Virus record (IMG/VR): IMGVR_UViG_3300028392_001307
Location: 1-33,547 of that record
Reading direction: 5' to 3' (one strand)
DNA length: 33,547 nt
DNA from: a virus
The position numbers were made by a program, and so were the translations under genes. A model generated the notes under the pieces. It worked only from the letters and a program-made list of their open reading frames with translations. It was not told the origin of the DNA and did not search any database. Below are positions 2,819-32,502 of this stretch, piece by piece (within the stretch, counting starts at the first letter, position 1; each line of letters opens with the position of its first letter).

Positions 2819-3364
2819 ATGAGCGCACTAAACAGAAACCCTAAAAATCCAAATTACTTACACCCTAATAAGTTTCAATTAAACTTTTCTAGGTTGCCTA
2901 ATATACAGTATTTTTGTCAAACTGTAACTGTACCTGGTATTTCGTTATCAGAAATTCCACAAAATACACCTTTCGTAGACTTGTATAAACCAGGTGAAAA
3001 GGCAATTTATGATTTATTGAATGTTACTTTTTTGGTTGACGAAGCTTTAAAATCTTGGTTAGAAGTTCACGACTGGATTCGTGGTATGACTTTTCCAACA
3101 AACTTTAAAGAGTATGAAAATTTAGGTCTATTAAGTAAAACTGCTGGCATACGCCAAGCATCTGGTCTTGCACCACAATATTCTGATGCAACTCTAACAT
3201 TACTTTCATCGGCAAATAATCCAATTTTTAGATTTAAATTCTTTGATGTATTCCCTACCAGCGTGTCTTCATTTCCAATGTCTACAACTGATAGTCCAGA
3301 TACAACCATTACTGCCGATGCAACCTTCAGATATTCCTATTTTAATGTTGACAAAATAATTTAA
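2819..3364 (+). CDS. 3: Tail completion and sheath stabilizer protein, gp3-like
   Basis: A 181-residue protein, close to T4 gp3 (176 residues), which caps the tail tube and sheath before head joining. Shared signatures from memory of T4 gp3 are a VPGI motif near residue 42, the segment VTFLVDEALKSWLEVHDWIR (T4 has IVRFIVDENLKSWIGMYEWM) and a C-terminal YSYFNVDK resembling YTYFQVEK. The same fold occurs in tail-tube gp19 and initiator gp54, which are the alternatives. I chose ATG 2819: an in-frame GTG at 2786 would start inside the terminator and upstream of the late promoter. No Shine-Dalgarno sequence precedes ATG 2819. In other T4-like marine phages gp3 likewise sits between gp23 and uvsY. 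Confidence 0.8.
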   Translation: MSALNRNPKNPNYLHPNKFQLNFSRLPNIQYFCQTVTVPGISLSEIPQNTPFVDLYKPGEKAIYDLLNVTFLVDEALKSWLEVHDWIRGMTFPTNFKEYENLGLLSKTAGIRQASGLAPQYSDATLTLLSSANNPIFRFKFFDVFPTSVSSFPMSTTDSPDTTITADATFRYSYFNVDKII

Positions 3365-9554: not shown

Positions 9555-10318
9555 ATTTTGAAGAATACTTATCCAATTTTAAAAATGTAGTTGATAAAGA
9601 AGTTGAAGGTTGGTTTTACCCTAAAGATATCATAATCACATATGGCATATTGAATGAAATTCAAAAATCAAGTGGTGACATTTGTGAAATAGGTGTTGCA
9701 TATGGCAAAAGTGCCATTATGATTTCACAGTTTAAAGGTAATAGTAATTTTTATTTGTACGATATCTTCACAGAAGAAGCTAGAGTTATTGCTGAGAACA
9801 ATATTACAAAATTTGGAAACAGTAGTAATCTTGTATGGCGTTTACAAGATACAACACAATTAAACACCGAAAATGTTGTCTTTGTTAATGATTTAAGATT
9901 CTTACACATAGATGGTTGCCATGAACATTCTGCCGTATTAAGTGACTTGATGTTATTCAGTAACAAAATGAAAGATGAAGGCGTAATTGCAATTGATGAT
10001 TTTCAAGACCAAGAATTTCCAGGCGTTAATAGTGCAGCCTTTGAATTCTCTCTATCAAAAGCAAACTACAAAAATTGGAGAGTGTTTGCCATTGGCGATA
10101 ACAAAGCATATATGTGCCAGAAGAAATATGCCGAAAGATATCAAAAGGCATTAGTTGATTATATTGAGAAGGCAAAAAAAGAATACAATGTTCCATTTGC
10201 CATGCATTTAGGTTTGCGTGAGGTTCTAGATATAAATGCCCTTATGTGCGATTCTAGAACGGCATGGGATCCTAAGGTAATAAAGGAATCTTTGTTTGAC
10301 AAACCAATCATAGGATGA
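9551..10318 (+). CDS. Class I SAM-dependent methyltransferase-like protein
   Basis: A 255-residue protein whose N-terminal 160 residues show a Rossmann methyltransferase pattern. Motif I is EIGVAYGKS (46-54), an acidic residue ends strand 2 (YDIF, Asp71), HIDGCHEH lies at 119-126, and IAIDDFQD (147-153) near the active site is typical of the Methyltransf_24/TylF-like group, in which tandem acidic residues can bind a metal. The substrate is unknown: sugar, small-molecule or protein modification are all possible. It starts in ATGA overlap with gp46, so it is co-translated with the recombination genes, though a functional link is not implied. Confidence 0.8.
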   Translation: MNFEEYLSNFKNVVDKEVEGWFYPKDIIITYGILNEIQKSSGDICEIGVAYGKSAIMISQFKGNSNFYLYDIFTEEARVIAENNITKFGNSSNLVWRLQDTTQLNTENVVFVNDLRFLHIDGCHEHSAVLSDLMLFSNKMKDEGVIAIDDFQDQEFPGVNSAAFEFSLSKANYKNWRVFAIGDNKAYMCQKKYAERYQKALVDYIEKAKKEYNVPFAMHLGLREVLDINALMCDSRTAWDPKVIKESLFDKPIIG

Positions 10319-10329
10319 TATAATAAGAT

Positions 10330-10923
10330 ATGAGTCAAATTTTAAAACTTAATACAGTTGATCCAAAGTATCAACAAGAAAAAGAAGTAGATCCATTTCC
10401 GTTGTATGATGAAAATCATCCAATGATGAAGCAACGTATTCCTGAATACGATATCACACTTCTACCTAATCCTGTTATGACGAATACTATTAACAGGTTA
10501 AAGATGACTATGAAGTTATACAATGGTTTAGGATTATCTGCCAATCAATGTGGTGTTTTTGAAAGAGTTTTCATTGTTGGTAATGGAGAGATTGTTATCG
10601 TTTGTATAAACCCTAAAATAATCAAAGCTTCAGATGATTTAATAAAAGACAATGAAGGATGTTTATCTTTTCCTGGTTTGTTTCTAAAAGTGGAACGAGC
10701 ATCATCGGTTGAAGTTGAGTATTATGACTATCAAGGTAAGAAATACAATACAACTTTTACTGGACTTACTGCTAGATGTTTCTTACATGAACTAGACCAT
10801 ATGAATGGCATTACTATGGATCAACATGCGAAACCTTTGGCCTTGAAAATGGCAAAAGAGAAGCAAGGTAAATTATTTAAAAGAGTTAAAAGGTTACAGA
10901 GAAATAATGGCATATTCGTTTGA
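10330..10923 (+). CDS. def: Peptide deformylase
   Basis: A 197-residue metalloenzyme that removes the formyl group from nascent N-terminal methionine. All three family motifs are present: GLGLSANQCG (66-75), EGCLS (109-113, Cys is a metal ligand) and HELDH (153-157, two His ligands and the catalytic Glu). A basic C-terminal extension of about 35 residues follows the catalytic core; a C-terminal helix near the ribosomal tunnel is known in bacterial enzymes, while most phage forms are shorter. Deformylases are common auxiliary genes of marine T4-like phages. No strong ribosome site precedes ATG 10330. The end overlaps the next gene by 17 bases. Confidence 0.96.
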   Translation: MSQILKLNTVDPKYQQEKEVDPFPLYDENHPMMKQRIPEYDITLLPNPVMTNTINRLKMTMKLYNGLGLSANQCGVFERVFIVGNGEIVIVCINPKIIKASDDLIKDNEGCLSFPGLFLKVERASSVEVEYYDYQGKKYNTTFTGLTARCFLHELDHMNGITMDQHAKPLALKMAKEKQGKLFKRVKRLQRNNGIFV

Positions 10924-12244
10924 TCCAAAAGATGATGTAGAAGAACAATGGCGTAAGTGGCAAGAAGCCAACCCGCCAGAATCTTTTATGGATATCAAAG
11001 AGAATGATTTGCGTGAGCAGACCATTAAAGACCTTGCCTATGTTTCACAGATGGATGTGAAAGAGTATACACTATATCAAAAATGGTGTGAGATTAAAGA
11101 AAAGTATCCATCGTTTGTAAACAATACTTTATTTGGTGAAGAGATTCAGTTGCTTGACCCAAAGCAACAGATATTGGTAGATGAAGTTAAGAGTAACATT
11201 TGGTTGCCACAAACTGCTGATGACTATTTGAATATTGAACCAGTAATAATCTATACCGATGATTCTAGTTCTGTATCTCGCAAAGGTGTTGATGGTACAG
11301 TCATTGAAGATAAGATTAAGCGTAGTGATTTACCTGAAAGATGGAACACAGCAAGAAACTTTATTTCAACAATGAAGAACAATAGTAACATTGGTCGCAA
11401 CCTTAATTTCCTTGTTGCAGATAATAAAACAGGTAAGTATCTTGGTGTTATGTGTATATCATCCGACTTTCTTGATTTGACACCAAGAGATAATGCAATT
11501 GGTTGGCCTCGTGAATTAAAGACACAAGGCGGAATGATTAATCATACTGCAATCGGTTCTACTATTGTTCCGTTTCAACCACTTGGTTATAATTATGTTG
11601 GTGGCAAATTACTTGCTTTACTTTGTCTATCAGATGAAGTACAAAGATTATGGAAGAAACAATATGGTGATACACTAATTGGTGTAACAACAACATCATT
11701 GTATGGTAAAACTAAAGCTAGTGGTCTATCACAATATGATAACCTTGACCATTGGAATGCCATGGGTTTTTCTTCTGGTTCAGTATCATTTGAACCGAGT
11801 AAAGAATCAAGACACAATATTCGTGAATGGTTAAAAGCAAATCACACACGAAAATATTTTGAATGGTATGTTGCAAAGAAAGCTAGTGGTCAACCACATA
11901 AGCGTGACCATAAGAATCGTTCTTTAAACTTCACTTACTCTAAGTTGAACATACCAAAAGATTTGATTAGAACAGCACATCAGCGTGGCATTTATTTTAG
12001 TCCACTCTACAATAACTCTTTTGAGTTTTTGCGTGGTGATATCAAAGAAGATGCATTGGTTAAATCGTTTGATACTAGTTATGAAGCCTTGACTAAAATA
12101 TGGAAAGAAAAACATGCTAAAGGCCGTATCAAACAATTAATGAAGAAAGATAAGGTATCATATGATACCCTATTCTATGATAAATTAATCTACATGACTT
12201 GGGAAGAATGTAAAGATTACTATCTTGGCCAAGTCGGTCGCTAA
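10907..12244 (+). CDS. DUF4338/DruA-like protein, copy 1
   Basis: A 445-residue protein. Residues 150-290 follow the DUF4338 (Druantia DruA) pattern: GRNLNFLVAD, KYLGVMCISS, RDNAIGW (194-200), then GGKLLALLCLSDEV (232-245) where DruA has its LAS.lL helix, and TTTSLYGKTK...SQYDNLDHWNAMGF (261-288) where DruA has ETFV...YrAaNW..vG. The N-terminal 140 residues and C-terminal 150 residues (basic, with a CobT-free, unassigned sequence) are extra. Its biochemical role is unknown; DruA belongs to an anti-phage system, but here it is phage-borne and lacks other Druantia genes. A diverged paralogue lies at 31387-32502. It overlaps the deformylase gene. Confidence 0.7.
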   Translation: MAYSFDPKDDVEEQWRKWQEANPPESFMDIKENDLREQTIKDLAYVSQMDVKEYTLYQKWCEIKEKYPSFVNNTLFGEEIQLLDPKQQILVDEVKSNIWLPQTADDYLNIEPVIIYTDDSSSVSRKGVDGTVIEDKIKRSDLPERWNTARNFISTMKNNSNIGRNLNFLVADNKTGKYLGVMCISSDFLDLTPRDNAIGWPRELKTQGGMINHTAIGSTIVPFQPLGYNYVGGKLLALLCLSDEVQRLWKKQYGDTLIGVTTTSLYGKTKASGLSQYDNLDHWNAMGFSSGSVSFEPSKESRHNIREWLKANHTRKYFEWYVAKKASGQPHKRDHKNRSLNFTYSKLNIPKDLIRTAHQRGIYFSPLYNNSFEFLRGDIKEDALVKSFDTSYEALTKIWKEKHAKGRIKQLMKKDKVSYDTLFYDKLIYMTWEECKDYYLGQVGR

Positions 12245-12261: not shown

Positions 12262-12290
12262 TTGACACGATACTAAATACCTGTTATAAT
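12262..12290 (+). promoter_or_regulatory. Consensus sigma70 promoter for the structured RNA
   Basis: TTGACA (12262-12267), exactly 17 bp, TATAAT (12285-12290), with TG at 12282-12283: a full consensus -35, spacer and extended -10, the strongest-looking promoter in the window. Expected start is about 12297. The only thing between it and the next promoter (12410) is the structured RNA below. Confidence 0.9.
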
Positions 12291-12301
12291 ATCAACTTAA
12301 T

Positions 12302-12364
12302 GCGGAGAGTCCGAGACAACCTATCCCAATAGGCAGTCAGGTTTAACTCCTGATATCCGCTCCA
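12302..12364 (+). ncRNA. Short tRNA-like structured RNA
   Basis: No ORF is present, but the 63 bases fold as a compact cloverleaf. The acceptor-like stem is GCGGAGA (12302-12308) with TATCCGC (12354-12360), one G/A mismatch, followed by T and an encoded CCA (12362-12364). A T-arm-like hairpin has stem TCAGG/CCTGA with 7-base loop TTTAACT (12337-12353). A middle hairpin is CCTAT-CCCA-ATAGG (12320-12333), and a mini hairpin is GTC-CGA-GAC (12309-12317). It is about 13 bases shorter than a normal tRNA, with no 7-base anticodon loop and only a vestigial D-arm, so it is not a standard tRNA. Alternatives are a degenerate tRNA, a regulatory RNA, or a riboswitch: its ends (GGAGAGU and AUCCGCUCC) resemble those of THF-I riboswitches as I remember them, although the interior does not. 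A dedicated promoter supports real transcription. Confidence 0.55.
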
Positions 12365-12384
12365 TTCTTAAAACAAAAGTATTA

Positions 12385-12437
12385 CTGTTGCTTCTATGCA
12401 ACATACTGGTTGACTTTTACGCCAACTCTGTTATAAT
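12385..12437 (+). promoter_or_regulatory. Promoter with upstream hairpin element for the CobT-like gene
   Basis: TTGACT (12410-12415), 16-bp spacer, TATAAT (12432-12437) with TG at 12429-12430. Just upstream is an inverted repeat GTTGC-TTCTAT-GCAAC (12387-12402). The 30-base block 12385-12414 aligns without gaps, 23 of 30 bases identical, to 14819-14848 ahead of the CobS-like gene, so the two promoters look like copies of one unit. The hairpin may also end the RNA made from 12297, although no strong T run follows it. Confidence 0.75.
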
Positions 12438-12465
12438 ACACCTATAAATTGAAATAGGAAACTGA

Positions 12466-14817
12466 ATGAGTTTTACAGTTGAACAAAAATCTCTCTTGAC
12501 CAAACTAATGGCAAGTGAGAATCTTACGGTTGAACATCAAAAAATCAACACCGCTAAGTTTGATACAAAAAATCGTATACTATATTTGCCAATCTGGCAA
12601 AATATGGAAGGTTTCATGTATGACCATTTGGGCGGACATGAAGTTGGCCATGCATTATACACACCAGCTGATGGCTGGCATGATGCTGCTATTGATAAAA
12701 CAAAAGGTAAGAATTTCAAATCTTTCCTTAATGTTGTAGAAGATGCTCGCATTGAGAAAAAAATAACCCGTAAATTTCCTGGTCTTAAAACTTCCTTCAA
12801 AAAAGGTTTTCAAGAATTACTTGACCGTGATTTTTTCGGTATCAAATATAAAAATGTAAATGCTTTGGCATTTATTGACCGCTTAAATCTTTATACAAAA
12901 TCACAATACACTATTGATAACATTAAATTTTCCTTAGAGGAAAGAGTTTACATTGCAAAGGTACAAAACCTTGAAACATGGGAAGATGTGCTTGCTCTGA
13001 CTAATGAAATTTATGATTATTCAAAAACTGAACAATTAGAAATGCAAATGCAACAGCAAATGCGTGATTTTGAAACGCCTGATTATGATTCACCTGATGA
13101 AGTTGGCGATACTCAGGATTTTGATTATGATGAAGATGAAAACGGTCAACCACAAGATTCAAATAATACTAAAGATGGTAAAGATGATAAAGAAGATAAG
13201 CAAGAAACAAAAGGCGAATCCACCGATGATGATTTAGAAGATGGTGAAGATGATTCGGACACTTCTACTTCCCTTGACCGTTACAAAAAATCTACCGAAT
13301 CTGAAAATGACCAGTTTGCACCTGATTGTCGTACCGATGATTCTTATCGTAAGAATGAAAATTCATTACTAGATGATAAATGTAAGCCTTATGTTTATGT
13401 AGATATTCCTGAAGCTAAGAAAGAAAACATATTTACACCTGCTAAGCGTGTGCAAGAGTTAATGACCGAATACTACCAAGAAAGAATGGAATTAATTGGT
13501 TCATTTAATAATGAATACATTCAAAAATTGGTAAACGATTTTAAGAATAAGAATGAACGTTATGTCGGTTTACTTGCCAAAGAATTTGAAATGCGTAAAG
13601 CTGCCAAGGCATTTAGTAAATCTAAACTATCCGATACTGGTGATATTGACATTAACAAACTTTGTAATTACAAGTTTGATGATAACATTTTCCGTAAAGT
13701 GATGATGATACCAAAAGGCAAATCACATGGTTTGATTCTATTGCTTGATTGTTCTGGTTCTATGTCTGATAACATGGCAGGTTCAATTGAACAGATTTTG
13801 GTTCTCTCTATGTTCTGTCGTAAAGTAAATATTCCATTCCGTGTGTTTGGTTTTACTGATGATATGGGAACTTTTAAAATGGATCGTAATATTGATTATG
13901 TAACCGATAAAGATTACTTTTCTTTTTCTAAGAAAGTTGGTCAATTAAATTTCTCTAATGTTCAATTGCGTGAATACTTGAATTCAAAAATGTCCAATGT
14001 TGAATTTACCAAGAGTTTGCGTAACATGATTCTACTAAAACAAGGTTATTCTTATGGTAGAGGTCTTTCTGTAGTTGGCCGACCAACAAGTGAAAGTCTT
14101 TCTAATACTCCTTTGATTCAAGCTGTAATTGCTGTAGGTTCAATTCTAAATGAATTCCGTACAACTAACAATATTGATTTGACAAGTCTAATCATAGTAC
14201 ATGATGGTGATGCAGATAGTACCAATTATCGTGCTGTTGAAACTGAAATGGAAACACATGCAGGAACTAAAACTTGGATGTCAAGTGAAGTTTTTGATTC
14301 CCGTTATTCTAATGTTATCTTGCGTGATTCTAAAAACAAATTTGAATATCAATTGAAAAATTCTGCTAGACAAAATTATCAATATGCCACAAACGAACAA
14401 TTGTTACTTGGTGTTTTAGAGTGGATCCGTGTTGTTGGTAAAACCAAAGTGTTTGGATTCTTTATTCTTCCTAGTCGCCTAGGCCATGCAAAGGCTGCTA
14501 TTCGTAATCGCTTCTTCTTTGAAAATGGTTTATCTATTCAAAATATGCGTAGTGAACCGAACACGCCTGCTTGGGATATAGAAAAACAATTGATAAAAAA
14601 ATTCAAAGATGAAAAGTTTCTAATCTCAAACACTAAAGGTTATAATTCGTTCTACCTTATTTCAGGTGGTTCTAATTTACAAACAGAAGAAGAAGAATTG
14701 GAAATTGATGGTAAAGTTACTTCAGGTAAATTGAAGAATGCTTTTATGAAAATGACAAAAAAGAAACAAGTGAATAGGGTACTAGTATCCAAATTCATTC
14801 AACAAATGGCAGTTTAA
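12466..14817 (+). CDS. CobT-like protein: zincin-like HExxH domain plus VWA domain
   Basis: A 783-residue three-part protein. The N-terminal domain has HEVGH (58-62) followed by NVVEDARIE (89-97), an HExxH plus downstream Glu arrangement of a zinc metallopeptidase; the ExxRxE...PG segment is also where CobT has its conserved E-RxE-PG. Residues 200-300 are an Asp/Glu-rich linker. The C-terminal VWA domain has a complete MIDAS: DCSGS (428-432), Thr548 in NTPL and Asp580 in HDGD. VWA proteins of this type work with an AAA+ partner as in cobaltochelatase CobST or MoxR-VWA chaperones, and that partner is the next gene. No CobN-like subunit is in the window, so cobalamin synthesis is unlikely to be its sole role. 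Whether it is a protease is inference. Confidence 0.85.
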   Translation: MSFTVEQKSLLTKLMASENLTVEHQKINTAKFDTKNRILYLPIWQNMEGFMYDHLGGHEVGHALYTPADGWHDAAIDKTKGKNFKSFLNVVEDARIEKKITRKFPGLKTSFKKGFQELLDRDFFGIKYKNVNALAFIDRLNLYTKSQYTIDNIKFSLEERVYIAKVQNLETWEDVLALTNEIYDYSKTEQLEMQMQQQMRDFETPDYDSPDEVGDTQDFDYDEDENGQPQDSNNTKDGKDDKEDKQETKGESTDDDLEDGEDDSDTSTSLDRYKKSTESENDQFAPDCRTDDSYRKNENSLLDDKCKPYVYVDIPEAKKENIFTPAKRVQELMTEYYQERMELIGSFNNEYIQKLVNDFKNKNERYVGLLAKEFEMRKAAKAFSKSKLSDTGDIDINKLCNYKFDDNIFRKVMMIPKGKSHGLILLLDCSGSMSDNMAGSIEQILVLSMFCRKVNIPFRVFGFTDDMGTFKMDRNIDYVTDKDYFSFSKKVGQLNFSNVQLREYLNSKMSNVEFTKSLRNMILLKQGYSYGRGLSVVGRPTSESLSNTPLIQAVIAVGSILNEFRTTNNIDLTSLIIVHDGDADSTNYRAVETEMETHAGTKTWMSSEVFDSRYSNVILRDSKNKFEYQLKNSARQNYQYATNEQLLLGVLEWIRVVGKTKVFGFFILPSRLGHAKAAIRNRFFFENGLSIQNMRSEPNTPAWDIEKQLIKKFKDEKFLISNTKGYNSFYLISGGSNLQTEEEELEIDGKVTSGKLKNAFMKMTKKKQVNRVLVSKFIQQMAV

Positions 14818-14818
14818 T

Positions 14819-14871
14819 CTGTTGTTTTTCCGCAACACAACGGTTGACAAACCATCCAGTTGTGTTATAAT
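14819..14871 (+). promoter_or_regulatory. Promoter with upstream hairpin element for the CobS-like gene
   Basis: TTGACA (14844-14849), 16-bp spacer, TATAAT (14866-14871) with TG at 14863-14864. The upstream 14819-14848 block is the paralogue of that at 12385-12414, and its hairpin is kept with a T-G pair in place of C-G (GTTGT...GCAAC). It begins two bases after the stop of the CobT-like gene. Expected transcript start is about 14878. Confidence 0.8.
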
Positions 14872-14901
14872 ATGTGTATCTTGTGAAGTAAGGAATTTAT
14901 T

Positions 14902-16095
14902 ATGTCAAATCGTGCAGAGTTGAAAAAAGAGTTTTTGAATAAACTAACCAGTTTAGGAAAAGCTACAGTTAGTAGAACTGAGATAAAAGAAATTAGTAAG
15001 CAATTGGGAATTACTTCTCAATGGTATACTAAAGATCCAGATAACCGTGTTGGTCGTGGTCAATACAAAGTTCCAAATTCCTCTTTTTCTCCTGTAATTG
15101 AAATGTCCGCTCAAGTATTACCTATGACAAAACCTGTAGATAAATCTGAGAATCGTATTCAGAATGTCCAAACAGATTTGGAATCTTCTGATTTGATTCC
15201 TAAATCATATAAAAATTATGTGCCATTTGGCAACTTTGAAGATGTGCTTGCAATTGTAAATGCACACCGTTTTTTCCCTGTTTTCGTTACTGGTCATTCT
15301 GGTAATGGTAAAACAATGTCTATTGAACAGGCCTGTGCAAAGGCTAAACGCAAATTCGTTTGTGTATCAATGACACCAGAAACCGATGAAAGTGATTTAC
15401 TTGGTAACTATGTTCTGATTAATGGTAATATGGAATGGCGTGACGGCCCCGTTACAACGGCTGCTCGTCAAGGTGCCGTTTTATGTATTGACGAAATTGA
15501 TTATGGTGCTCAGAACCTTTCTTCATTACAACGGGTGCTTGAAGGCAAACCATTCATGTTGAAAAAGAAAGGCGAATTAATTTCTCCTGCTCCAGGCTTT
15601 ACCGTATTCGCTACTGCAAATACAAAAGGTAAAGGTTCAGATGATGGTCGTTATATGTTTACTAATGTACTTAACGAAGCCTTCTTGGAAAGATTCCGTA
15701 CAACAATGGAACAAGAATTTCCTCCTGTTAAGACAGAGCGTAAGATTATTGAAAAAGAATTGACCTCTGTTGGCCGTGCCGATAATGAGTTTGCTGAAAA
15801 ACTTGTTACATGGGCTGATGTGATTCGTAAAACATTTGCGGATGGCGGATGTGACGAAGTGATTTCCACTCGCCGTTTAGTTCACATTGTTGAAACATTC
15901 GGTATCTTTGGTGATAAGATGAAAGCAATTAGTTTGTGTTTGAACCGTTTTGATGATGATACTAAGGCATCATTCCTTGACTTGTATACCAAAGTTGATG
16001 CAGGTGCAAATACTGAAGTGATTCTTGCCTCTACAATTACTGCTAAAGAGAATCCAGATGCAGAACAAGAGGAAGATGAAGATGTTCCTTTTTAA
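14902..16095 (+). CDS. cobS: CobS-like AAA+ ATPase
   Basis: A 397-residue MoxR/CobS-type AAA+ ATPase. An N-terminal helix-turn-helix-like region (1-60, with SKQLGITSQWYTKD) precedes the AAA core: Walker A GHSGNGKT (131-138), Walker B VLCIDEID (193-200), sensor 1 TAN (238-240) and an arginine-finger region ERF (263-265). CobS-like genes are a hallmark of T4-like marine phages; in bacteria CobS pairs with CobT, and here the two phage genes are adjacent. The usual reading is help with cobalt insertion; the alternative is a MoxR-type chaperone remodelling a host or virion complex. Ribosome site AAGGAA at 14889-14894 before an ATTATG start. It has its own promoter. Confidence 0.9.
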   Translation: MSNRAELKKEFLNKLTSLGKATVSRTEIKEISKQLGITSQWYTKDPDNRVGRGQYKVPNSSFSPVIEMSAQVLPMTKPVDKSENRIQNVQTDLESSDLIPKSYKNYVPFGNFEDVLAIVNAHRFFPVFVTGHSGNGKTMSIEQACAKAKRKFVCVSMTPETDESDLLGNYVLINGNMEWRDGPVTTAARQGAVLCIDEIDYGAQNLSSLQRVLEGKPFMLKKKGELISPAPGFTVFATANTKGKGSDDGRYMFTNVLNEAFLERFRTTMEQEFPPVKTERKIIEKELTSVGRADNEFAEKLVTWADVIRKTFADGGCDEVISTRRLVHIVETFGIFGDKMKAISLCLNRFDDDTKASFLDLYTKVDAGANTEVILASTITAKENPDAEQEEDEDVPF

Positions 16096-16130
16096 TTGAG
16101 GCGAATGTTTATTAATTGCCTAAGAAATGC

Positions 16131-16159
16131 TTGCTATCTCTCAGGTATTATGTTATAAT
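16131..16159 (+). promoter_or_regulatory. Host-type promoter for the winged-helix gene
   Basis: TTGCTA (16131-16136), 17-bp spacer, TATAAT (16154-16159) with TG at 16151-16152. Expected start is about 16166, giving a leader of roughly 70 bases, the longest in the window, before ATG 16239 with GGAG at 16226-16229. Confidence 0.8.
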
Positions 16160-16178
16160 ACTACCACATTTGAGAGAT
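16136..16178 (+). repeat. Inverted repeat spanning the promoter (possible operator)
   Basis: Perfect 8-base arms ATCTCTCA (16136-16143) and TGAGAGAT (16171-16178), 27 bases apart and centred on the -10 hexamer. A second 7-base pair, GAGGCGA (16098-16104) and TCGCCTC (16183-16189), encloses the same region. Such an arrangement suits an operator, perhaps for the winged-helix protein encoded just downstream. Confidence 0.5.
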
Positions 16179-16238
16179 TGAATCGCCTCTTAAATAATTG
16201 TTCTTTCAGCGATTCGTGTTTATTATGGAGTATTCCTA

Positions 16239-16511
16239 ATGTCAGTTAAATCAAAAGTCCTCGCCTATCTTTCTAAAGATAGTGCATACAACACCTTGAC
16301 CGCAAACAAAATGCAGTCAGTTTTCGGTGTTGCAAACCCATCCGCAACTATCAATGAGTTGCGTAATGAAGGTAACGCAATTTACTTGAACACTCGCATC
16401 AATGCAAGTGGCGAGAAAGTGTCCTTCTATCGCTTGGGTAAACCAACTAAGCGTATGGTTGCAGCGGGCATTGCCTCTATCCGTTCACAAGGTGAGCGTG
16501 CATTTGCCTAA
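16239..16511 (+). CDS. Small winged-helix-like DNA-binding protein
   Basis: A 90-residue basic protein. Residues 5-50 read as a winged helix-turn-helix: a helix (VKSKVLAYLSKDSAY), then a turn and second helix (LTANKMQSVFGV), then a recognition helix (SATINELRNEGN). A beta-wing follows (YLNTRINASGEKVSFYRLG). The C-terminal tail is basic. Codon choice is richer in C-ending codons than in most neighbours and resembles gp23, suggesting high expression. Its start context (GAGTATTCCTAATGTCA) is close to that of gp22 (GAGATTCCTAATGTCA). Similar small proteins occur near cobS in marine T4-like phages, function unknown. It could be a transcription regulator or a nucleoid-type DNA binder. Confidence 0.8.
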   Translation: MSVKSKVLAYLSKDSAYNTLTANKMQSVFGVANPSATINELRNEGNAIYLNTRINASGEKVSFYRLGKPTKRMVAAGIASIRSQGERAFA

Positions 16512-16531
16512 TTAAAGGCTAATCCGAGAAT

Positions 16532-16567
16532 AAGGAGAGATATATATTAGTATCTCTCCTTTTTTTT
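16532..16567 (+). terminator. Rho-independent terminator after the winged-helix gene
   Basis: An 11-bp stem (AAGGAGAGATA 16532-16542 with TATCTCTCCTT 16551-16561) with an 8-base loop runs into T residues through 16567. It closes the accessory block that starts at 12262. Confidence 0.93.
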
Positions 16568-31154: not shown

Positions 31155-31400
31155 ATGAAAATCGTAAATTTAAACCGTGAATTACCAGAAGCAAAAAGAA
31201 AAAAAGATTTATTAGATATCATAGATTCATTTCGTAAACGAATTGATGATGGTGAAGTAGATGAATTTGTAATTGCTTCTATGGATCCAATTGATGGTGA
31301 AGTTGTTATCACAGCCTGTTGTCAAGATTTTGTTGGTGCAGTTGGTCTATTTGAAATTGGTAAAAACATTTTAATACAAAGTAATAATGGTGTTGAATAA
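31155..31400 (+). CDS. Small protein of unknown function after gp41
   Basis: An 81-residue protein whose ATG directly follows the gp41 stop. Residues 15-50 form a helix then strand (DIIDSFRKRIDDGEVDEFVIASM), and VVITACCQDF contains adjacent cysteines (residues 55-56). No membrane segment. It overlaps the next gene by 14 bases. Not recognised; tight packing supports it. Confidence 0.65.
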   Translation: MKIVNLNRELPEAKRKKDLLDIIDSFRKRIDDGEVDEFVIASMDPIDGEVVITACCQDFVGAVGLFEIGKNILIQSNNGVE

Positions 31401-32502
31401 AGAACAAGCACTACATTGTGCAAATGTATTCTCAGACTACTTTGATAAGTTTGGTCGTATTGATGAATACATGCGTGAACAAAAAGTGGCATCAATGTCA
31501 GAAAGGTCACCTGTACTTTTTGGTATGGGACCTGAAGAAGACTTGTTCTCTGATTTCACAATGTCACCTGCTGACATGGAGTTTGAACTCATTGAATTAC
31601 CACAAGACCGATGGGATACTTACTTGAATATGATTTCTTCACATTCAAACATGACAAGTATTCCTGGTCGTTGTTTGCGCTTAGCAATACTTGAAAAGAA
31701 AACTCAGAAGTGGGTTGGTTTCATTCGTCTTGGTTCTCCTGTTATCAATTGCAAACCTCGTAATGATATGTTGGGTCGTGTATTCACACAACATGAAGGT
31801 GGCGCTCAACGATTCAATGCTTGTGCTGTTATGGGTTTTGTTATCGTACCTGCACAACCATTTGGTTTCAATTATCTTGGTGGTAAATTATTGGCTGCAA
31901 TCTGTACTACACATGAAGTTCGTAAGATGCTTGATGACAAGTATAAGATGACAACTTGTTTGTTTGAGACTACCAGTTTGTATGGCAGTTCTAAGGCAGT
32001 ATCACAGTATGATGGTATGAAACCTTTGATTAGATTCAAAGGCCTAACTGATAGTGATTTCATGCCTATGTTACATGGCAAAACTTATAGTGACCTGAAA
32101 GATTATATTGAAGATATTATTGGAGAAGATTTGGCACCACCTGATGCTTCTAGCCGTAAACTAAAGATATCTAATACAATGGTTAATCTAATTAAGGTTG
32201 CACTCAAAGGCACACCAGAAGGCGATAAGTTTAAATTGACTATTGAGAATGCCAAGAATCTAAATGAACAGAAACGGTACTTCATCTCTGATTATGGGTT
32301 TAAAAACATGGTAGAGTTTGTCAATGGCGATACAGAAAAATTATTACCTGGTGAAAACTATGAAAAACACCATCTGGCCAATATCATAGAGTGGTGGCGA
32401 AAGAAAGCAATGAATCGTTTTGAGACATTAACAACAGAAAAACGCATCAGGACAGAACAAGAAGTCTGGACAAATGGAACTGTGCTTGACATAATACGAT
32501 AG
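31387..32502 (+). CDS. DUF4338/DruA-like protein, copy 2
   Basis: A 371-residue diverged paralogue of the protein at 10907-12244. Shared blocks are GRCLRLAILEKKTQKWVGFI (94-113), CKPRNDMLG (122-130), PFGFNYLGGKLLAAICTTHEV (158-178), TTSLYGSSKAVSQYDG (195-210) and a following FKGLTDSDF. The first copy has PLGYNYVGGKLLALLC, TTSLYGKTK and SQYD at the same spacing. The C-terminal 150 residues are basic and also loosely shared. It resembles the DUF4338 domain of Druantia DruA, but the function is unknown. The presence of two copies about 20 kb apart in one phage is unusual. A promoter pair lies at its 3' end. Confidence 0.7.
   Translation: MVLNKEQALHCANVFSDYFDKFGRIDEYMREQKVASMSERSPVLFGMGPEEDLFSDFTMSPADMEFELIELPQDRWDTYLNMISSHSNMTSIPGRCLRLAILEKKTQKWVGFIRLGSPVINCKPRNDMLGRVFTQHEGGAQRFNACAVMGFVIVPAQPFGFNYLGGKLLAAICTTHEVRKMLDDKYKMTTCLFETTSLYGSSKAVSQYDGMKPLIRFKGLTDSDFMPMLHGKTYSDLKDYIEDIIGEDLAPPDASSRKLKISNTMVNLIKVALKGTPEGDKFKLTIENAKNLNEQKRYFISDYGFKNMVEFVNGDTEKLLPGENYEKHHLANIIEWWRKKAMNRFETLTTEKRIRTEQEVWTNGTVLDIIR

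Follow-up and report, generated by a model that had tools for sequence, protein, structure and literature searches.

A small putative glycine tRNA mimic of T4-like phages and its association with DruA-family genes

Several RNAs that resemble transfer RNA (tRNA) act outside ordinary decoding, such as the stable RNAs of phage T4 and the tRNA-like domain of transfer-messenger RNA (tmRNA), the latter of which carries alanine and a long messenger part. In Staphylococcus, a non-proteinogenic tRNA-Gly feeds the GNAT-fold FemXAB enzymes for the formation of cell-wall bridges, and avoids translation through its altered D- and T-loops. In this study, a window of 33,547 bases was analyzed, which is the full IMG/VR record IMGVR_UViG_3300028392_001307 and represents a fragment of a T4-like phage. 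The analysis centred on a tRNA-Gly-like RNA of 63 nucleotides (nt) at positions 12302–12364 (+ strand) and on the two DruA-family (DUF4338) genes of the window, DruA1 (10907–12244, + strand) and DruA2 (31387–32502, + strand). A preliminary description had treated positions 12262–16567 as a self-contained module of four elements, namely a structured RNA, an HExxH-VWA protein, a CobS-like ATPase and a winged-helix protein.

The enzymes concerned have been characterized to different degrees. The DUF4338 domain has been identified as a GNAT domain (PMC10853773). The Mom protein of phage Mu attaches an acyl group of the glycine type to the N6 atom of adenine, for which an acyl-CoA donor such as glycyl-CoA has been suggested (PMC7824862). 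In the literature searched, from which subscription papers and preprints were mostly absent, no RNA partner for Mu Mom was found, nor a paper that connects a tRNA donor with Mom or DruA, and prior work is possible. Clusters of cobS and cobT have been described in phages, and joint action with the CobN of the host has been proposed (PMC8651126).

The present locus resembles these systems in part. As in the Staphylococcus system, an altered glycine tRNA would be combined with a GNAT-fold transferase. However, in the RNAs of Staphylococcus the cloverleaf is complete and the anticodon arm is normal, whereas the phage RNA has a D-arm of 3 base pairs (bp) and no anticodon loop, and no homology of DruA to FemX is known. 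The likeness to the T4 stable RNAs and tmRNA lies in the tRNA-like, non-decoding shape, with no sequence resemblance established. Both window proteins match the Pfam and PADLOC models of the Druantia protein DruA; the remaining Druantia models match none of the ten proteins scanned in the window, which is itself a fragment, and the window DruA genes belong to a phage and lie alongside replication functions. The likeness to Mu Mom consists of the predicted GNAT fold of DruA1, for which Mom (8bv8) is the top structural row, and of the position of DruA2 in replication clusters.

Structure and glycine identity of the RNA

The RNA is predicted to fold into a small cloverleaf (−18.9 kcal/mol, z −2.5) with an encoded CCA end, the 3-bp D-arm and a 4-nt loop replacing the anticodon loop. 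An exact 20-nt core was matched in 23 contig stretches, and the complete RNA is identical at 63/63 positions in many contigs, in several of which the adjoining peptidase is just ∼70–75% identical. The versions in relatives form a family of 63–70 nt, the longer members (64–70 nt) lying in the same gap between DruA1 and the peptidase gene. Among 15 distinct 63-nt relatives all 270/270 pair cells are standard, and 8/18 pairs have changed on both sides, in the acceptor, middle and T arms; these values were reached by 0/500 shuffles and by none of the slid controls. A 67-nt subfamily is 100% paired with 9/22 pairs changed on both sides, including pairs of the short D-arm hairpin, which is invariant in the 63-nt group. 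Since related sequences were entered as separate rows, these covariation counts are not independent events. The fold and the compensatory changes confirm that 12302–12364 is a real structured RNA, as the preliminary description had proposed; its nature as a glycine tRNA mimic went unnoticed there.

Standard annotation tools do not report this RNA. An Rfam scan of the stretch returned one chance Listeria match and no tRNA match, ARAGORN made no tRNA call in the window or in 24 relatives, and blastn of the intergenic region against cultured phages gave short unrelated matches alone. In five relatives (L061, L128, L131, L133 and L136) the RNA is separated from the peptidase gene by an extra open reading frame (ORF) of ∼60 amino acids (aa), which has its own promoter and a conserved DYSHTLLEQ-like start.

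The main determinants of bacterial glycyl-tRNA synthetase (GlyRS) are G1–C72, C2–G71, G3–C70, U73, C35 and C36, and on sequence comparison the whole of this tRNA-Gly identity set is present in the RNA. Its members start with GCGG and end with CCGC-U-CCA; the GCGG and CCGC ends were part of the pattern used to search for relatives, whereas any discriminator was accepted, and U73 was found in 30/30 distinct RNAs. The canonical tRNAs of the same loci carry GCGG...CCGC-U in 11/11 tRNA-Gly and in 0/80 others. In addition, CC is found in the middle-hairpin loop of the listed members, and CCA is encoded in the members found, although the pattern searches had CCA in the pattern.

Compared with a canonical tRNA, the acceptor stem, T-arm and 3′ CCA are present, and the first two covary. 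The canonical anticodon arm (5-bp stem, 7-nt loop, U33) is not matched, the loop being of 4 nt in the window and of 4–6 nt in the mini relatives. Neither is the canonical D-arm with G18G19, in place of which there is a 3-bp hairpin with a 3–4-nt loop, and the T-loop departs from TTCRANY/UUCRANY, reading UUUAACU or variants. Owing to this short D-arm, small anticodon-like loop and odd T-loop, the RNA should not decode and is best described as a putative non-decoding mimic of glycine tRNA. Five of the phage records (G001, G007, G008, G016 and G017) also encode a normal tRNA-Gly(UCC) and/or tRNA-Gly(GCC).

Related tRNAs were also seen outside the mini-RNA family. Pelagibacter phage HTVC008M, which has both DruA genes, contains an unannotated tRNA-Gly(ACC) with a non-canonical T-loop at 91140–91213 (L206 10998–11071), adjoining CobS, and this is the one tRNA that the Rfam tRNA model finds in its genome. 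The pelagiphage Mosig (L351) likewise has an unannotated, odd tRNA-Gly(ACC) with a non-canonical T-loop. Furthermore, three contigs from metagenome-assembled genomes (MAGs; L214, L217 and L218) carry DruA homologues with a tRNA-Gly or tRNA-Gly-like RNA within ∼1 kb.

Co-occurrence with the DruA genes

The RNA follows the DruA genes, above all DruA2. It is present in 13/13 IMG/VR records that were chosen solely via DruA2 (G016–G028), three of which are near-identical, and in 0/11 DruA-less records. Of six records chosen for DruA1 without an adjacent RNA, only G001, the sole carrier of DruA2 among them, has the RNA elsewhere. A partnership of the RNA with DruA1, as suggested by adjacency, is weakened by five DruA1-only records that lack the RNA, three of which are partial and all of which fall in two clades. 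In a GC-rich bacterial MAG (G040) the glycine pattern is uninformative, as reversed controls match equally often.

The same records separate the RNA from the peptidase and CobS genes. DruA-less phages that carry this pair do not contain the RNA (for example G011–G015 and G030–G033), and in G001, G016 and G017 the RNA is present with the peptidase gene 37–44 kb distant. The winged-helix gene still adjoins DruA where the pair is missing (L173, L177 and L186). The assignment of the RNA to the CobS/peptidase pair was therefore rejected, and the four elements do not hold together as the self-contained module of the preliminary description: synteny across relatives, the loss of which it had named as evidence against itself, is lost for the RNA. 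As further observations on gene order, the winged-helix gene comes immediately after DruA1, with no peptidase/CobS pair in between, in L173, L177, L186, L188, L190, L192–L197, L199 and L203, and the peptidase gene sits elsewhere in the genome in G001 and G002.

Proposed glycyl transfer and alternative explanations

We assign a probability of roughly 0.5 to the proposal that a DruA GNAT transferase is supplied with glycine by the RNA, acting as a dedicated glycyl-tRNA mimic that does not decode, with phage DNA as the leading candidate target. To the observed structure, conservation, identity elements, co-occurrence and fold class, this proposal adds charging, exclusion from translation, transfer and the DNA target as inferred steps. 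Transcription would be driven by the strong host-type promoter of the RNA, and the transcript would probably be trimmed as far as the encoded CCA and receive its glycine from the GlyRS of the host. Because the features of the D-arm, T-loop and anticodon that belong to decoding are missing, the charged RNA would not enter the ribosome and would be reserved for the enzyme, which would be DruA2 and perhaps also its paralogue DruA1. The enzyme would then transfer the glycine from the RNA onto its target, and the adjoining peptidase, CobS and winged-helix genes would be neighbours rather than partners. Phage DNA is the leading candidate target because DruA2 lies in replication gene clusters and the DruA1 fold resembles that of Mu Mom.

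A more specific form of this proposal is tentative and, on present evidence, rather unlikely: DruA2, as a Mom-like GNAT at the replication fork, would put glycine from the phage-made mimic onto the bases of new phage DNA. N6-glycyl-adenine and the N6-carbamoylmethyl-adenine made by Mom are isomers, so that a rearrangement could give the Mom base. If this were true, a glycyl-RNA donor could hold for Mu Mom itself.

A GNAT fold is predicted for DruA1 (445 aa; Pfam DruA 74.6 bits, cut-off 27) from an AF2 model with a pLDDT of 88.5, which was built from 62 sequences and replaced an earlier, poor model from seven sequences (pLDDT 63), and from GNAT structural matches. No FemX or L/F-transferase structure was among the PDB matches listed for DruA1. 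DruA2 (371 aa; Pfam DruA 34.3 bits, cut-off 27; phrog_19197, E 1e-132) directly follows the gp41 helicase region in the window; its homologues overlap the end of the gp43 gene in HTVC008M and lie near the gp44/gp62 clamp-loader genes in cyanophages, and one of them carries the annotation 'mom'. In the unrelated Microbacterium phage Appa, a Mom-like gene lies 33 bp from the only annotated tRNA of the genome, a tRNA-Gly(ccc) on the opposite strand, which is a single, anecdotal case. A search of 12 Mom phages with the glycine pattern GCGG...CCGCTCCA gave one clear normal tRNA-Gly and otherwise chance-like matches; the Appa tRNA-Gly begins with GCGC and escaped the pattern.

A number of results weigh against the proposal. 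The top Foldseek rows for the DruA1 model were GNATs at weak E-values, with a best E of 0.0099 and none below 0.001. The top PDB row in VIA-align was Mu Mom (8bv8; Z 9.2, rmsd 4.6, 184 residues), which lies within 1 Z of the ordinary acetyltransferases in the next rows (Z ≤8.7, mostly ∼145 residues) and is thus tied with them, so that the likeness to Mom is a lead and not proof. Moreover, the structure model covers DruA1 and not DruA2. When Mu Mom, as a single sequence and as a 12-member alignment, was compared with the DruA profile by hhalign, no match was obtained, and the S124 region reads NSES in Mom and GGKLL in DruA. The invariant GGK(LL) motif of DruA is of the type that binds acyl-CoA in GNATs, and may indicate that the donor is acetyl-CoA and not glycyl-RNA. 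In 11/12 Mom neighbourhoods inspected there was no annotated adjacent tRNA-Gly. As for the genomes, seven DruA2-bearing records of the cyanophage type lack the mini RNA, none was seen where DruA2 cyanophages were read around their tRNA clusters, and the complete genomes among the seven (6/6) carry a normal tRNA-Gly(UCC) and no mimic, from which it follows that the mimic is not essential for DruA2. Finally, Mosig combines its odd tRNA-Gly(ACC) with DruA1 alone.

The GGKLL motif favours the main rival explanation, in which DruA, with acetyl-CoA as donor, would acetylate glycyl-tRNA like toxins of the TacT/AtaT2 type, and the mini RNA would serve it as a substrate, a decoy or an antidote. A preference for glycyl-tRNA is known from several toxins of this type, TacT3 appears in the structural matches of DruA1 (Z 7.9), whose predicted GNAT fold carries the invariant GGK, and a mimic of glycine tRNA whose presence follows DruA2 would suit such an activity. 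We nevertheless regard it as unlikely: two DruA genes, one of them in replication clusters, would be odd for a toxin–antitoxin pair, the mimic is distant from DruA2 in most genomes, and the top structural row is Mu Mom and no toxin. Less probable again is that the RNA is a decoy shielding phage translation by occupying tRNA-cleaving defence nucleases or the GlyRS of the host, its link to DruA reflecting shared ancestry within a phage group. Phages do counter tRNA-cleaving defences with tRNAs, and the non-decoding tRNA shape, strong promoter and 63/63 identity across many contigs are compatible with such a role; however, a decoy would have no reason to follow DruA2 across lineages and genome positions or to be missing together with it in two clades, and the anticodon-like loop, the usual target of the nucleases, is altered.

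It is quite improbable that the RNA, the HExxH-VWA protein, the CobS-like ATPase and the winged-helix protein jointly form a protease-chaperone directed at a host complex. Their adjacency, own promoters and the palindromes shared by the upstream regions of the peptidase and CobS promoters are in favour of this, as are the conserved HExxH and MIDAS motifs and the absence of CobN; against these stand the RNA, which is absent from DruA-less phages with the pair and elsewhere far from the peptidase gene, and the winged-helix gene, which persists without the pair. These points count against a four-part unit and not against the ATPase/VWA pair alone, which may act as a protease-chaperone. The poorest candidate, which we hold to be very improbable, is a tRNA-Gly gene in decay or of minimal size whose product continues to decode GGN codons. 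Although the glycine acceptor, the encoded CCA and the CC of the loop would fit this explanation, and the HTVC008M and L124 members have an ACC anticodon and almost the full length of a tRNA, the compensatory changes indicate selection for the truncated shape, loops of 4–6 nt stand on long middle stems, and normal tRNA-Gly genes occur in the same phages.

Neighbouring genes, transcription signals and significance

In addition to the two DruA genes, the window encodes the T4-like proteins gp22-like scaffold, gp23, UvsW, gp46/47-like proteins, sliding clamp, clamp loader, DNA polymerase, UvsX and gp41 helicase. The gene after the RNA (12466–14817, + strand) encodes the HExxH-VWA protein (783 aa; phrog_459 'peptidase', E 1e-169; CobT-like), with HEVGH at aa 58–62, the acidic motif EDARIE and the VWA/MIDAS motif DCSGS (DxSGS) at aa 428, which bears out the earlier statement that HExxH and VWA occur in one protein. 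The putative zincin signature, HExxH with the downstream acidic motif ED.RI[ED], is kept in HTVC008M and Mosig, and the HExxH, acidic and MIDAS motifs are conserved. The next gene (14902–16095, + strand) encodes a CobS/MoxR-like AAA+ ATPase (397 aa; AAA_5 78.2 bits, cut-off 22; CbbQ_C 24.8, cut-off 20.6; phrog_249, E 1e-103).

Judged by these families, the two proteins are an already known and widespread phage pair: they belong to the phrog_249 and phrog_459 families of the phage CobS/CobT-like 'peptidase' pairs, and relatives occur in 538 (phrog_249) and 463 (phrog_459) phage records, chiefly T4-like cyanophages. Unlike the CobS and CobT of cobaltochelatase, they fall below the equivalog cut-offs (TIGR01650, 76.3 bits against 558.6; TIGR01651, 16.1 bits against 759) and include the HExxH zincin motif. 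The lack of CobN in the window, pointed out in the preliminary description, extends to 0/18 related phage records (ten IMG/VR records of >130 kb and eight isolate genomes), in a search in which positive controls matched; a self-contained cobaltochelatase in these phages is therefore unlikely, although the host may have a CobN. Given the conserved motifs and the scores below the CobS/CobT cut-offs, the designation 'MoxR-type ATPase plus VWA zincin' would fit the pair well, in agreement with the MoxR/VWA-type pairing first suggested. The third gene (16239–16511, + strand; 90 aa) probably encodes a small winged-helix protein. It matches phrog_4973 (E 2e-10), and the winged helix is a weak match (HTH_39, E 0.01, below cut-off).

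All four elements of the stretch are preceded on the + strand by a promoter with an extended −10 TG. That of the RNA is of the sigma70 type (12262–12290; TTGACA, 17 nt, TATAAT; 12/12 match), and in relatives this upstream promoter-like box is mostly kept, some retaining the −10 region alone. Those of the peptidase gene (12410–12437) and the CobS-like gene (14844–14871) match at 11/12 and 12/12, and that of the winged-helix gene (16131–16159) is weaker (10/12). Promoters of at least 11/12 with TG number six in the window (five on the + strand and one on the − strand), compared with 0.175 per dinucleotide shuffle; three lie inside 12262–16567 and others at 3348 and 10296, so that the stretch is enriched in such promoters, which are not exclusive to it. 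The 12/12 promoter at 10296 precedes a peptide deformylase gene (10330–10923) that overlaps the start of DruA1 and is kept near DruA1 in many relatives.

The terminator reported at the end of the stretch is present at 16532–16561 (+ strand; a 12-pair stem and then a T-run), while terminator-like sites overall are not enriched in the window (5 observed versus 3.6 expected). Two palindromes, TGTTGCTTCTATGCAACA at 12386–12403 and TGTTGTTTTTCCGCAACA at 14820–14837, are each separated by exactly 6 nt from the −35 element downstream, that of the peptidase promoter and that of the CobS promoter, respectively. Palindromes of the form TGTTG...CAACA occur at three sites in the window compared with 0.5 per shuffle, and may be an operator; in many relatives, similar palindromes precede the peptidase promoter.

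The most interesting part of this region is thus the RNA together with the DruA genes, which extends beyond 12262–16567. A conserved, covarying RNA of many aquatic T4-like phages has been overlooked by annotation pipelines. Were it to carry glycine, the cell-wall tRNA-Gly of Staphylococcus would have an equivalent in phages, one with a further reduced tRNA body. Through its tie to DruA GNATs, the RNA provides a concrete lead on the role of DruA proteins, for phages and perhaps also for the Druantia defence system, and it allows a test of whether glycyl-tRNA is the donor in DNA modification of the Mom type. Its occurrence together with an acetyltransferase-like enzyme that resembles Mom suggests that RNA-borne glycine may serve these phages in a chemical modification not yet described.

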